From contig JACVQK010000003.1 in the NCBI GenBank assembly GCA_015661155.1, forward strand, positions 1 to 36,913: 36,913 bases of DNA, given 5' to 3'. The translations under genes and the position numbers were made by a program. Shown piece after piece: positions 1,274-22,670 of the stretch. Positions within the stretch are counted from its first letter, which is position 1, and each line of letters opens with the position of its first letter. This stretch comes from Dehalococcoidia bacterium (GTDB lineage Bacteria; Chloroflexota; Dehalococcoidia; Lucifugimonadales; UBA2985). The notes beneath the pieces are model-generated. The model did no database searches and was not told the DNA's origin. It worked only from the letters and a program-made list of their open reading frames with translations.

Positions 1274-1575
1274 TGTCATAGGGATTGAACGGTGGAAACC
1301 CTTCGATGCGGTTTCCATAAGTATTGCCCTGACCAATAAGTAGGATAGTTACGGTGCCTAATCGAGCACTTGCTTCATTGTGATGTCTATTTCAGCTTGG
1401 GATTGAGCAATGTGCACCTATGTTGCCCAATTATGAGACGCACCTTCTCTTTACGTGCAATAACAAGCAAGGTTGTCGAACCATGTGAGCGGGGTGTCGT
1501 TCAGGAGTCCGCTCACCCTGAGCCTGTCGAAAGGCGTGAGCGGACAGGAGCCAGTCTTTGGAAAATCAAAGAACC
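1274..1575 (+). repeat. Uninterrupted copy of a two-part (X-Y) dispersed repeat
   Basis: Positions 1274-1330 (X) match 22455-22511 in inverted orientation at about 53 of 57 bases. Positions 1335-1575 (Y) match 20658-20848, also inverted. Here X and Y are adjacent; in the other copy they are separated by about 1.6 kb carrying two genes. Y here also carries a 51-bp insertion. Just upstream, 1231-1272 resembles 13304-13343. The stretch 1088-1637 otherwise holds no gene I can support. Confidence 0.8.
1493..1543 (+). repeat. 51-bp palindromic REP-type insertion with 8-bp flanking duplication
   Basis: Relative to the sister copy at 20658-20848, this copy has 51 extra bases between two copies of GTGAGCGG (1485-1492 and 1536-1543). 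The insert has CCGCTCAC/GTGAGCGG arms around a CCTGAGCCTGTCGAAAGG core. The same core family recurs near 6805, 13351, 19181, 22539 and 35812. Confidence 0.75.
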
Positions 1576-12103: not shown

Positions 12104-13096
12104 CTATCGGGACATTTTCCGCGTAAAGGTTACCAGAAAGAGGGCAATAAGAAAAATGCCGAAGAGCGCCTCCACCACCCCCAGGTGTTTAGTCCAGTCC
12201 GCGGGGGCGATGTCCCCGCTTTCAACCCAGCCGCCGTAGCCCACGCCGGTGAAGGAGAGGCTGGAGAAGTAGAGAGCCTTCCAGGAGTGGGCGAGGAAAT
12301 TGCCCATCCCAGTGCTGGAGACGTCTACGCCGTTCCAGGGCATGTAGAGGAGGGCGAAAAGCAGGACCATGACGGCGCTCACGCCGATGACCCGCCAGGG
12401 TCGCGCTCCGTAGCCGGAGAGGAGCCGGTACAGCCACAGCTCCAGTATCTCCCACAGCCGCCACTGCTGCTGGGCCAGCTTGCGCCTGCACTCCCACTCC
12501 CGGTACTGGAAGGCGTCCGCGGTGTCGTAGTCGCCGGTGCGCTGGTGCCACTGCTTCAGGTCCCGGTAGGGTTCCAGGGCTTCTTCCCAGTGTTTGTCCA
12601 CCTCGTCCCCCAGGGTCATCCTCTTGCCCCACCGCACGCGGCGGAGCTTCGTGGTCTCGGTGATGGTGGCCCCATAGAGCCGGACGCCCTCCATGTTAGT
12701 CCATTCCTCGCCCCAGCCTTCAAAGTCGGCCCCGTCCAGGTTGGCCCCCCTCAGGTCTGCGCCCTGGAGGTTGGCATCCCCCAGTTCTGCGCCCTGGAGG
12801 TTGGCGTCCCACAGGACTGCGCCCTGGAGGTTGGCCCCAAACAGGTTCGCGCCCTGGAGGTTGGCACCCCCCAGGTGTGCACCCTGGAGGTTGGCCAGGA
12901 CCAGGTCTGCGCCCTGGAGGTTGGCCCCCATCAGGTGTGCGCCCTGGAGGTTGGCACCCCCCAGGTCCGCGCCCTGGAGGTCCCTACCGCTCAGGTTCAG
13001 CCCCTGGGCGGTGCTGCCGTTGGCCTCGATGAGTCGCTCCACGTCCTCACGGGTCAGGGGCTCGGCGCGGCCCCACTTCGCAAGCCACCAGTCCAC
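12104..13096 (-). CDS. Pentapeptide-repeat protein fused to a two-TM potassium channel
   Basis: A 330-residue membrane protein. After a short helical start come about 18 pentapeptide repeats of the A(D/N)LQG type (residues about 33-128), expected to form a right-handed beta-helix in the cytosol. A charged linker follows, then TM1 (about 237-262, VIGVSAVMVLLFALLYMPW), a re-entrant pore with a GVGYGG filter (SFTGVGYGG, K-channel signature TVGYG-like), and TM2 ending at the C-terminus (EALFGIFLIALFLVTF). This fits an Ion_trans_2 channel gated or scaffolded by the repeat domain. The start is GTG at 13096. The frame stays open further upstream but offers no conventional start. The ligand or signal is unknown. 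Confidence 0.88.
   Translation of the reverse strand: MDWWLAKWGRAEPLTREDVERLIEANGSTAQGLNLSGRDLQGADLGGANLQGAHLMGANLQGADLVLANLQGAHLGGANLQGANLFGANLQGAVLWDANLQGAELGDANLQGADLRGANLDGADFEGWGEEWTNMEGVRLYGATITETTKLRRVRWGKRMTLGDEVDKHWEEALEPYRDLKQWHQRTGDYDTADAFQYREWECRRKLAQQQWRLWEILELWLYRLLSGYGARPWRVIGVSAVMVLLFALLYMPWNGVDVSSTGMGNFLAHSWKALYFSSLSFTGVGYGGWVESGDIAPADWTKHLGVVEALFGIFLIALFLVTFTRKMSR
12738..12990 (-). repeat. 30-bp tandem DNA repeat encoding paired pentapeptides
   Basis: About eight near-identical 30-bp units built on GCGCCCTGGAGGTTGGC. Each encodes ten residues (LQGAxLxxAN) of the channel's pentapeptide domain. The near identity at DNA level suggests recent unit gain or loss by slippage. This is coding, not CRISPR: there are no unique spacers. 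Confidence 0.9.
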
Positions 13097-19211: not shown

Positions 19212-20582
19212 CTAGCTCCCCAACGCCCTCACGATGGCCCTCAGCAGGGCCTCCTCTTCATCGGGCAGCACGGTGCGGGGGTCGATGATGACCCGGTCTT
19301 CCTCTATGCGGGCGATGACGGGCGGCTCCGCCTGCCGCAGGCGGCGGGCCAGGCCCTGGGCACCTCCAGGCAAGCCGTCTGCGGCCAGAGCCACCAGCCA
19401 GGTGGGAAGGGTCTCACCGGGCAGGCTGCCTCCTCCTATGGTGGAGAGGCCGTGAACCACCTGCGCTCCTGCGCCGATACGCCCCTGCCATCCATCGGCC
19501 CTGCCCTTCAGCTCTTCGATAGGCATGGATATCATCCGCCACACAGGGACCTTCTCCAGGGCCTCCCCCTTGAGGTAGTGGAGGAGGGTTGCGCTGAGGG
19601 CGGCCAGGCTCAGCTTGTCGATGCGCACCGCCCTGGCCAGGGGGTGCCGGGCCAGGCGTGACACCGAATCCTTCTTCCCAAGTACGATGCCGGCCTGGGG
19701 GCCTCCCAGGAGCTTGTCCCCTGAGAAGAAGGCCAGGTCTACTCCGGCGGCGATGCTCTCCTGGGCCATAGGCTCGTGGGCCAGGCCGAACCGGGCCGTC
19801 TCCAGGAGGCAGCCGCTGCCCAGGTCGTGAAGGACGGACACCTGGCGGCGGGCCCCCAGCTCCACCATCTCCTCCACGGAGGTGTCATGGGTGAAGCCGG
19901 TAATACGGAAGTTGCTGGTGTGGACTTTGAGGAGAGCGGCGGTGTCCGGGGTGATGGCCCCCTCGTAGTCCGCGGGGTAGGTGCGGTTGGTGGTGCCCAC
20001 CTCCACCAGGACAGCACCACTCTGTCTCAAGACATCGGGGATGCGAAAGCCGCCTCCTATCTCCACGGCCTCTCCTCGGGACACGATGACCCCTCTCTGA
20101 TGGGCCAGGGCAGACAGGCCCAGAAGCACGGCGGAGGCGTTGTTGTTGACCACCAGGGCTGCCTCTGCCCCGGTAAGCTGGCATAGGATGGGCTCTATGT
20201 GGGCCTGCCTGGAACCCCTTCCTCCCTCCTCCAGGTCCATCTCCAGATTGGTGTATCCCCTGGCAGCCTGGAGGGTGGCCTCTACGGCCTCGCGGCTCAG
20301 TGGGGCGCGCCCCAGATTGGTGTGAATGACCACGCCGGTGGCGTTGATGAGGGGTGTGGGCCAGGGCTTCCACAGGGAGGTGGCCCGAGTCACCATGCCT
20401 TCCACCAGGTCATCGAAGGGAGGAGGCTCCTTGCCCTGGGCTATCTCTTGCCGAACCTCCTCCAGGCGTCTCCGCATCAGGTCAAGGACAGGCTCACGAG
20501 AGTAGACACCGATGAGCACACGGATTCGCTCTTCCGAGAGGAGTCTCTCTACACTGGGTATGCCTCGGTAGCTGGTGTCCAT
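19212..20582 (-). CDS. selA: L-seryl-tRNA(Sec) selenium transferase
   Basis: PLP enzyme converting Ser-tRNA(Sec) to Sec-tRNA(Sec) with selenophosphate; 456 residues (E. coli about 463). The ATG at 20582 is preferred: GGAG lies four bases upstream, and a TAGAAT -10 box sits at 20609-20614, so the alternative GTG at 20618 would be upstream of the transcript. Key parts are the N-terminal helical domain (IPSVERLLSEERI), the INATGVVIHTNLGRAPLS motif, VVNNNASAVLL, and FFSGDKLLGGPQAG with the PLP lysine at about residue 290. The C-terminus ends RTVLPDEEEALLRAIVRAL. No selB, selD or tRNA-Sec is in the window. The gene is flanked by repeats on both sides. Confidence 0.96.
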   Translation of the reverse strand: MDTSYRGIPSVERLLSEERIRVLIGVYSREPVLDLMRRRLEEVRQEIAQGKEPPPFDDLVEGMVTRATSLWKPWPTPLINATGVVIHTNLGRAPLSREAVEATLQAARGYTNLEMDLEEGGRGSRQAHIEPILCQLTGAEAALVVNNNASAVLLGLSALAHQRGVIVSRGEAVEIGGGFRIPDVLRQSGAVLVEVGTTNRTYPADYEGAITPDTAALLKVHTSNFRITGFTHDTSVEEMVELGARRQVSVLHDLGSGCLLETARFGLAHEPMAQESIAAGVDLAFFSGDKLLGGPQAGIVLGKKDSVSRLARHPLARAVRIDKLSLAALSATLLHYLKGEALEKVPVWRMISMPIEELKGRADGWQGRIGAGAQVVHGLSTIGGGSLPGETLPTWLVALAADGLPGGAQGLARRLRQAEPPVIARIEEDRVIIDPRTVLPDEEEALLRAIVRALGS

Positions 20583-20608
20583 GGCGCTCCGATTCGGGGG
20601 TCTAGGCC

Positions 20609-20614
20609 ATTCTA
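20609..20614 (-). promoter_or_regulatory. Probable -10 box of selA
   Basis: TAGAAT on the minus strand, 27 bases before the selA ATG. No clear -35 is seen. Confidence 0.45.
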
Positions 20615-20657
20615 GCACACCGCCGTTTCAAAGGCATTATCCAGGCCTGGCAGGGGC

Positions 20658-20848
20658 GGTTCCTTCGATTCTCCAAAGATTGGCTCTTGTCCGCTCATAT
20701 GGTTCGACACCCTTGGTTGTTATTGCAGGTACAGAGAAGGTGCGTCTCATCGTTGGGCAACTTAGGTGCACATTGCTCAATCTCAAGCTGAAAAAGACAT
20801 CACAATGAAGCAAGTGGTCGATTTGGCACCGTAGTCGTCCAACTTATT
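20658..20848 (-). repeat. Y half of the X-Y repeat, left flank of the matrixin island
   Basis: The reverse complement matches 1335-1575 closely (shared runs include CTTGCTTCATTGTGATGTCT and GATTGAGCAATGTGCACCTA), except that it lacks the 51-bp REP insertion. Its inner edge meets the stop codon of the 215-residue gene at 20844. Confidence 0.85.
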
Positions 20849-21491
20849 GACCACCAGACAGAGCTATGGCCTCCCGGACCTCATGGAGGAACAGTTCTTT
20901 AGACATGCCCCGGTATTGCTGGGTCATATCGAATCTACCAGGAGACATCGGTGAGACCTGATCAAGCGCGATGGCGAACTCCCCCTGTGGACCGTTTATA
21001 GCTGTATAGTCGTTACCGTAAGGTGAGTCAACCTCTCTCATGAAGACCATGGCTTCACATCCAACGGGCAATGCAGGGTGCGATCCATCCCACATATGAC
21101 CGATGGTGATTTGAGATTCCTGAAGATCGCCTTTGAGGACCTCGATTACCTGGACCGTACTCACAACATAAACCGGTGGTTGCCGCACCGGAAATGTGGT
21201 TTCTACCGGACCTGTCTGCGCGACAACCGTCCCACGGACAATGATAGGCGACCATGCGACAAGCTCTTGCATGCTACGTGCCCCTGCGTAGTCGCCATAG
21301 GTCCCACCCGGGGCATCCTCAATTAAGGTATCCAAATCCAAACAGCGCTCGCCAGCCGCAAGCTCCTCTTGCGTAAACCCGGTTGCAGAACCCTCCGTGC
21401 CGCCAGAGTTGATAGCGATTACTACTCCTGCAATGCCGAGCACCAGCGCCATTAGGGGGACTACCCGCATGAGAAACAATTTTCTGTCCAT
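20844..21491 (-). CDS. Exported or membrane-anchored protein of unknown function
   Basis: I do not recognise this 215-residue protein. It starts MDRKLFLMRVV, followed by one hydrophobic segment (about residues 9-28, VVPLMALVLGIAGVVIAI) that is either an uncleaved anchor or a signal peptide. The rest looks extracytoplasmic. Around residues 78-130 it has a beta-strand pattern (SPIIVRGTVVAQTGPV, then VYVVSTVQVIEVLKGD). This recalls small secreted proteins where a promoter of expenses is written as V-x-G-x-V strands, but no family is claimed. It is cotranscribed or close to the upstream matrixin gene (49 bp gap), and the two may function together outside the membrane. GC content appears lower than in flanking genes. 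Confidence 0.7.
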   Translation of the reverse strand: MDRKLFLMRVVPLMALVLGIAGVVIAINSGGTEGSATGFTQEELAAGERCLDLDTLIEDAPGGTYGDYAGARSMQELVAWSPIIVRGTVVAQTGPVETTFPVRQPPVYVVSTVQVIEVLKGDLQESQITIGHMWDGSHPALPVGCEAMVFMREVDSPYGNDYTAINGPQGEFAIALDQVSPMSPGRFDMTQQYRGMSKELFLHEVREAIALSGGQ

Positions 21492-21540
21492 CGTCTCTCC
21501 TCTCTGCCTCGTTGCCGTGAGATTTGGTTATCAGGGCAAC

Positions 21541-22176
21541 CTAGTCTGTATGACCGTAAAGCTGACTCCACCCCAAGACATCCACATCACGGCTTTTCAC
21601 CGTTTCGAAGCCATCCCAAGTGTAATGCATAATTGCATCGGTAGATGGGGACACTGTCGAATGGGCGAGACCAAATGAGTGCCCCAGTTCATGGGCTGCC
21701 ACATACTGGCGGTAAGCTGACGGGAAGATGGAATTATCGATTAAGTACTCAATTCGGTGAGAGTTGAGCACAACATCCACCCAGGTGAGGTGAGTGCTAC
21801 TGGTCGAAAGGCAATTTGGATTGCAGCTAACCCAGCCGGATCTCTCATCATAGTCGACGTAGAACACGAACACCTCAATGTCCCCACCGGTCTCAGTCAC
21901 TTCATTGAAGTCAACATAATCCTGAGTTGGTGATGCCCAGTTAGTGAGCGCGTAGCCTACCGGCGTTTCGTAGTCCTCACCGTTCTCATCCCAAAGGGCC
22001 ATACGAAGATTGATGTCGAGAGTTACCGGATTAGAAGAGCGTTCCCAATGCACGTGCCAGTAGTCATTCTGGTTGTCATGGGTCGCACTTACTGTATTCG
22101 TACTGAATAGCAGGAGGACTACTACCGCAACCACCGTCACACAAGGCTTAAACCGGTCCCTAAGAGCTTGAGGCAT
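21541..22176 (-). CDS. Secreted matrixin-type zinc metalloprotease
   Basis: A 211-residue metzincin. The signal peptide is at residues 1-32 (VTVVAVVVLLLFSTNTVSA). The zinc site HELGHSFGLAH is at 162-172 (ligands His162, His166, His172; base Glu163). The Met-turn follows in AIMHY (Met183), as in the matrixin/M10 family. The N-terminal part of the mature chain (VTLDINLRMALWDENGEDYE, then ALTNWASPTQDYVDF) matches the usual pre-catalytic strand and helix. There is no propeptide cysteine switch or C-terminal binding domain, so it is a minimal catalytic unit. The substrate is unknown. It lies in the candidate mobile island. Confidence 0.9.
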   Translation of the reverse strand: MPQALRDRFKPCVTVVAVVVLLLFSTNTVSATHDNQNDYWHVHWERSSNPVTLDINLRMALWDENGEDYETPVGYALTNWASPTQDYVDFNEVTETGGDIEVFVFYVDYDERSGWVSCNPNCLSTSSTHLTWVDVVLNSHRIEYLIDNSIFPSAYRQYVAAHELGHSFGLAHSTVSPSTDAIMHYTWDGFETVKSRDVDVLGWSQLYGHTD

Positions 22177-22308
22177 ACTTCCCTCCTGCCATACATGTGA
22201 TTTTTGTCCGGGGGTCTTGAGCGACGGCTAACCTTGCCTTATAGACCCACGCTCCTCTCATTCGTTTAAAGCCACCAAGGAAACTCCTAATTAGTTGGGG
22301 TTAACTAC

Positions 22309-22336
22309 ACTGTATCACCCCCCCCGACCTTGTCAA
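22309..22336 (-). promoter_or_regulatory. Probable promoter of the matrixin gene
   Basis: On the minus strand TTGACA (22331-22336), 16 bp, then TACAGT (22309-22314). This predicts a leader of about 125 bases before the ATG at 22176. Confidence 0.5.
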
Positions 22337-22454
22337 GCGGAAACTGCCAATTGCAAGTATCAGTTTGGTAATATTATGGTAATCAACTGGTAACACACTG
22401 CGTACATGCGCTACGGTACGGCCATTAGCTGCCAGATTGCGTATGGGAGGGGGT

Positions 22455-22511
22455 AGGGCAACGGTTATGGAAACCGCATTGAAGGGTTTCCACCGTTCAA
22501 TCCCTATGACA
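22455..22511 (-). repeat. X half of the X-Y repeat, right flank of the matrixin island
   Basis: The reverse complement matches 1274-1330 over 57 bases with about four differences, ending at the same TGCCCT. The gap 22177-22715 otherwise holds the matrixin promoter, a REP pair and a TATAAT box; I see no gene. Confidence 0.85.
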
Positions 22512-22538
22512 GGCACACAGCGAGCGGAGAGATAAATT

Positions 22539-22601
22539 CCGCTCACCTTGAGCCTGTCGAAAGGTGAACCGCTCATGGTTCGACAGGCTCACCACGAGCG
22601 G
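22539..22601. repeat. Pair of REP elements in inverted arrangement
   Basis: CCGCTCACCTTGAGCCTGTC is followed by GGTTCGACAGGCTCACCACG and ends in GAGCGG. This gives two opposed copies of the TGAGCCTGTCGAA core. Confidence 0.8.
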
Positions 22602-22670
22602 TTGATTATGACGGCCTATTTCGCAAGTAGGTCTTGGGATAGTTACATGGCTTTGGCGTTGGTGAGCTTG

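Follow-up and report, generated by a model that had tools for sequence, protein, structure and literature searches.

A REP-embedded island encoding a matrixin and a predicted TIMP-like protein in a Dehalococcoidia genome, with a short copy 19 kb away

Organization of the island and its short copy

The window (the whole stretch of 36,913 nucleotides that was analysed, from a Dehalococcoidia bacterium) contains an island with only two genes, neither of which is a transposase gene, and a short second copy of the island. Both copies are bordered by halves of a REP-type palindrome. The following features were recorded.

1278-1477 (+): short island copy, 200 bp, Y joined to X, in another REP (joined flanks align to REP units C88 and C59)
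1334-1340 (+): Y/X joint CAATAAG, matching the final sense codon plus stop codon of the putatively lost gene (alignment)
20660-20705 (-): REP right arm and tail beside the island (GAACCATATGAGCGGACAAGAGCC...; alignment to REP units)
20691-20849 (-): X half of the long copy, comprising the 3' island end and the start of the REP right arm, and starting with the final sense codon and stop codon of the P0001 gene (inverted-repeat search, alignment)
20706-22507 (-): long copy of the inserted island, 1802 bp with one TGTC counted in (joined flanks align to REP units C55 and C61)
20844-21491 (-): exported protein P0001, 215 aa, predicted TIMP/NTR fold (AlphaFold model and Foldseek)
21541-22176 (-): putatively secreted matrixin P0002, 211 aa (Pfam PF00413, 1e-10; motif inventory)
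22309-22336 (-): promoter-like site TTGACA-16-TACAGT ahead of the matrixin, a 10/12 consensus match only, such sites being as numerous as expected by chance
22452-22518 (-): Y half of the long copy, comprising the 5' island end and the end of the REP left arm (inverted-repeat search, alignment)
22508-22632 (-): composite REP unit and interrupted left arm beside the island (92 % identity to C83 and 93 % to G023 C10)

The X halves (159 nt, 89 % identity; BLAST E-value 1.9e-55 in the own genome) form inverted arms at 1334-1492 and 20691-20849, and the Y halves (about 67-71 nt, 87 % to about 90 %; E-value 6.3e-19) at 1260-1330 and 22455-22525. Few inverted pairs in the window are longer. In the short locus, Y abuts X at 1334 and the two halves together span 1267-1492, whereas in the long locus (20691-22518), which is inverted relative to the short one, they are split by approximately 1.6 kb (20850-22451). 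A preceding sequence-only reading had described this arrangement, with a secreted matrixin and an exported protein between the separated halves. The repeat arms, BLAST and alignment confirmed it, and two ORFs were found in the interval, the matrixin with a Pfam PF00413 match. The adjacent halves had been placed at 1274-1575; the ends are corrected here to the points at which a REP palindrome is broken (1278-1477, 200 bp, and 20706-22507, 1802 bp).

X of the long locus starts with CAA TAA, the final sense codon and the stop codon of the exported-protein gene, and the short locus retains CAATAAG at 1334-1340. The resemblance of the joint to CAATAA and the coincidence of a repeat boundary with the stop codon, both pointed out earlier, are therefore real, except that the boundary is that of X in our labels and not that of Y.

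When the 351-bp short locus was used as a query against the own genome (1.81 Mb, 101 contigs), X and Y were found in the window only and the remaining matches were REP-like flanks. Collecting all copies, as had been proposed, thus gave two loci, of which the long one carries cargo. The halves do not occur independently, the outcome named as contrary to that reading, but only together and with both outer boundaries in common. P0001 and P0002 are each encoded once in this genome. Among 60 genomes from the same family and order, no relatives of the island were detected; the matches were REP sequence.

Insertion into the REP palindrome

The outer parts of both copies are the halves of a genome-wide REP-type palindrome, CCGCTCATGGTGAGC(C/T)TGTCGAACCATATGAGCGG, and both copies break it at the identical base, TGTC^GAACC. 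When the flanks were joined at TGTC|GAACC, those of the long locus aligned without interruption to REP units C55 (105 nt) and C61 (96 nt), and those of the short locus to C88 and C59 (57 nt each). Thus, both loci are filled sites with the same insertion base. The suggestion that the island had inserted into a repeat holds for the REP palindrome outside X/Y, but not for X/Y itself as that repeat. The ends can be defined from the REP interruption points (1278-1477 and 20706-22507). As for a target duplication, TGTC is present at both ends of both copies and is itself part of the REP; either a duplication or a piece of the element end would account for it.

IS elements from several families are known to target REPs (PMC1525189). 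Like IS1397, ISKpn1, IS621 and ISPpu9 (PMC1525189), the island has a fixed insertion point in the REP palindrome. Unlike them, it has no transposase and no inverted repeats (its ends, ATAGGGATTG... and ...CAAGGTTGTC, do not form an inverted repeat) and it is present in two copies only. No transposase or recombinase accompanies the island, and this weighs against the explanation favoured below. Neither a second element breaking REPs at TGTC nor another left end at TGTC^ of REPs was found in 11 genomes. In the own genome (G000), no other insertions were seen at TGTC^, the remaining cases being point changes or truncations.

Several candidate mechanisms were considered and set aside. An IS110 bridge-RNA element was rejected as the own genome has no DEDD transposase, and a RAYT origin was rejected as the single Y1 transposase of the genome is IS200-like and not REP-flanked. 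Rfam gave no credible match at X or X-like ends. The outer end of X was also considered as a general element end. However, TATAATAACAAGCAAG is almost always found directly against a REP right arm, and the sequences behind it are unrelated. The motif is therefore associated with REPs and does not show that there is one element family.

In a separate observation, the REP right arm is preceded by a fixed 15-nt end in the motif ACGTATAATAACAAGCAAG(C/T)TGTCGAACCATACGAGCGG. The outer bases of this end (CGTAT or GCAT) seem to vary together with the REP arm (ATACG or ATATG), and the motif itself follows at least three blocks of sequence that are unrelated to each other. Its sites lie in G000 (C35, C56 (two), C8 and C27; window 1449-1492) and also in G016, G041, G023, G004 and G051 (L080-L109). 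Two paralogous genes for PKD-repeat secreted proteins (G000 C56:68640-73200; C35) each lie beside the motif and REPs, and these loci are perhaps further REP-bounded islands of secreted proteins.

The matrixin and its predicted TIMP-like partner

P0002 matched Pfam PF00413 (Peptidase_M10) with 42.1 bits against a curated cut-off of 24. It carries the zinc motif HELGHSFGLAH (162), which follows the metzincin pattern HExxHxxGxxH, and the Met-turn AIMHYT. A hydrophobic N-terminus was read by eye, and there is no cysteine-switch propeptide. P0002 is a putative secreted protease of the animal-collagenase type. Matrixins are the enzyme class that TIMPs bind.

The P0001 gene starts 49 bp past the matrixin stop codon on the same strand, and the gap contains a Shine-Dalgarno-like GGAGAG. 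P0001 has no significant relative in Pfam, NCBIfam or the PDB sequences. Its AlphaFold model (pLDDT 71, pTM 0.69), which was built on an alignment of three sequences only, consists of a hydrophobic N-terminus, a low-confidence linker and a TIMP-like domain. This domain (about 74-211) was modelled better than the N-terminal 64 residues, of which residues 1-37 and 56-64 have pLDDT below 50. When the model was compared with the PDB using Foldseek, with no information on the matrixin neighbour, the top match was agrin NtA (4.4e-5), which its PDB entry title describes as related to N-TIMP-1. TIMP-2 (3.2e-4), the PCOLCE NTR domain, TIMP-1 and complement NTR domains were also matched, and all of them rank above other OB folds. 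The same TIMP/NTR group tops the Foldseek results for a fused homologue from Paenibacillaceae (low-confidence model, pLDDT 43). A fold search of BFVD gave nothing below 1e-3. The models thus predict a TIMP/netrin-type OB fold for P0001.

P0001 has cysteines at positions 50 and 145 only, and neither the N-terminal Cys-x-Cys nor the conserved TIMP disulfides are present; the TIMP-like proteins of L113, L116 and L117 have no cysteine at all. A lipobox is also absent, with no cysteine near the N-terminus, while the Paenibacillus xylanexedens homologue has a lipobox-like IAGC. By predicted fold the P0001 family would belong with the TIMPs, but it lacks the cysteines that define TIMPs (inhibitor family I35) and the pair was not filed as TIMP. 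That the family has no Pfam model and no PDB sequence match also weighs against the favoured explanation.

The pair recurs elsewhere. A search of 250 genomes of the order with P0001 gave one relative (G054, L113), and the best relative of P0002 adjoins it on the same contig. An alignment of the matrixin, searched against the genome collection, found this Baikal-deep-G113 Dehalococcoidia genome and a member of the Paenibacillaceae (L114), in which the matrixin and the TIMP-like domain are fused in one 372-aa protein. In another Chloroflexota class (L110, 3-1713), a matrixin gene, frameshifted in the assembly, has a TIMP-like gene on each side. With the fused protein as a query, three Bacillota plasmids were found (Paenibacillus xylanexedens, Bacillus badius and Cytobacillus; L115-L117), each with a metalloprotease gene and, after it, a gene labelled 'hypothetical' that belongs to the TIMP-like family. 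The 5-kb B. badius plasmid pPM5 (L116) has rep, mobV and one small hypothetical gene, and the pair (470-1632) is its main cargo. No match to the P0001/P0002 family was obtained in the phage collection, and no viral contig with a TIMP-like partner was found. This recurrence, together with the fusion, is the strongest evidence for what would be a functional partnership. The first reading had noticed the matrixin and the exported protein, but not the TIMP-like nature of the latter or the conserved pairing. In the Baikal genome, the TIMP-like gene (L113:4614-5300) carries a TGA in frame, whereas the matrixin gene beside it is intact.

By gene layout and predicted fold, the closest known system would be mtz-tim, which occurs in Listeria prophages and in mobile elements of Firmicutes (PMC8235301). 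The Listeria metzincin cuts about 50 N-terminal residues off a TIMP-like lipoprotein, its substrate, which is thereby freed and sensitises the cell wall to lysis (PMC8235301). The authors of that study did not come across any previous report of TIMP-like proteins in bacteria, and the lipobox of Listeria Tim, being absent in other Firmicutes, is not strictly defining (PMC8235301). Both systems have a secreted metzincin gene directly followed by that of an exported TIMP-like protein without its own promoter, both lie on mobile or acquired DNA, and in both a low-confidence linker precedes the TIMP-like domain. The island differs in its Chloroflexota host, its REP location, the absence of a lipobox in P0001 and the lack of a cI-cro switch or phage genes; a fused form of the pair also exists, in Paenibacillaceae. 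With the animal MMP-TIMP pair, the likeness is the matrixin catalytic domain and the TIMP/NTR-type OB fold predicted for P0001. However, the bacterial partner has no Cys-x-Cys, disulfide pattern, PDB-sequence match or Pfam match, and the bacterial genes are linked or fused. Pseudomonas alkaline protease is also a metzincin with a cognate protein partner, AprI, which blocks the protease and protects the producer. The fold of AprI differs from that of the TIMP-like partner (PMC8235301).

Origin of the two copies and proposed mode of action

The 1.6-kb core (G + C 0.519) is the lowest-G + C stretch of that length in the window. G + C is low in X, Y and cargo alike (0.45-0.54; X, Y and the 5' flank 0.45-0.52), whereas in the flanking genes it is about 0.63, so that the proposed comparison of 20.85-22.45 kb with its surroundings shows a G + C-poorer island. 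GC3 of the two island genes is 0.56 and 0.55, compared with 0.78 ± 0.05 for the 22 other ORFs. Because X, Y and cargo are equally low, they probably arrived as one foreign unit, of which the short locus would be a copy minus 1602 bp. A 1602-bp deletion from the long copy is the simplest and most likely account of the short locus.

Alternatively, the cargo could have entered an existing Y-X unit later, with the short locus as the ancestral empty form. Y-X does form a coherent, cleanly joined unit of 200 bp, and the coincidence of gene end and X start is expected under deletion and insertion models alike. This order of events is nevertheless unlikely: the composition of X and Y matches the cargo and not the host, the cargo edges have no direct repeat, and the gene's own stop lies inside X while the short locus retains CAATAA. 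It is because the L113 homologue, which has no X, likewise terminates in ...GQ-stop that the stop codon is assigned to the gene. The earlier proposal of a deletion derivative of a cargo-bearing, non-transposase element is thus supported by the shared low G + C, the retained CAATAAG and the two-gene content. Its 'MITE-like' label is not. Many copies would be expected of a MITE, whereas these two loci are the only ones with X and Y in the genome, and 60 related genomes have none. With two copies only, no terminal inverted repeats, no related transposase, no IS110, a single Y1 transposase that is IS200-like and away from REPs, no other left end at TGTC^ and no further REP insertion (11 genomes), a cargo-carrying MITE or transposon family is very improbable, even though the identical insertion point, the TGTC on either side and the recurrence of the X outer-end motif beside REPs would suit it.

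The explanation that we consider probable is that an mtz-tim-type operon was acquired into a REP, that its second copy lost 1602 bp, and that the partner protein is cleaved and released. A two-gene operon (secreted matrixin, then exported TIMP-fold partner) would have been acquired horizontally together with its own flanks, Y on the 5' side and X on the 3' side, and would have landed in a REP palindrome. Transposition, or recombination between REPs, would have brought a second copy into another REP at a distance of 19 kb, and the loss of both genes and of the promoter region from this copy would have left Y directly next to X. As a compatible variant, the second copy may have arisen through ectopic gene conversion between REPs after one insertion, without transposition. 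This is a realistic possibility that we rate somewhat below even: it predicts both copies in homologous REPs at the same base, as seen, and makes an enzyme unnecessary, but the REP stretches common to both sites beside the island are short (about 15-60 bp).

In the favoured explanation, the matrixin would be exported without a propeptide and the TIMP-like protein tethered at the cell surface through its hydrophobic N-terminus. The matrixin would bind the TIMP-like domain and cut the disordered linker (about residues 30-64), and the released domain might act on the envelope or on neighbouring cells. A classical protease-inhibitor pair, in which the TIMP-like protein protects the producer by inhibiting the matrixin within the envelope, as AprI does with alkaline protease, is rather unlikely. 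A TIMP fold beside a matrixin, the fusion of both in Paenibacillaceae and a matrixin without a cysteine-switch propeptide, for which outside control is plausible, are in its favour. However, TIMPs inhibit through the N-terminal Cys-x-Cys. The proteins of L113, L116 and L117 contain no cysteine and the two of P0001 lie elsewhere, and these missing TIMP cysteines make classical inhibition unlikely. The Listeria partner is moreover a substrate, and by analogy with Listeria cleavage and release are favoured.

As far as the comparison with Listeria holds, the placement in a REP, the fused form and the occurrence of an mtz-tim-type module outside Bacillota would be new, mtz-tim being already known in Listeria and Firmicutes. 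The Listeria pair is the sole experimentally studied bacterial metzincin/TIMP-like pair that we found in the literature. The apparent relatives of this pair, found in Chloroflexota, carried by small plasmids of Bacillota or fused into one protein, indicate a general mobile two-component module and point to a direct partnership. The pair offers simple test systems for the function of a TIMP fold without TIMP cysteines, and is relevant to how the link between matrixins and TIMPs arose. That the matrixin and its TIMP-fold partner are an old, widespread bacterial module, and that animal MMP-TIMP descended from or was seeded by a linked pair, is a faint prospect. For the locus itself, the MITE reading is replaced by a testable history of an acquired island in a REP, one copying and one deletion.

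Two other genes of the window were also recorded. selA (selenocysteine synthase; 19212-20618, -) directly adjoins the island. A gene at 12104-13096 (-), whose DNA is a 30-bp tandem repeat, encodes a pentapeptide-repeat protein that has membrane segments at its C-terminus and a GVGYG motif resembling those of ion channels.
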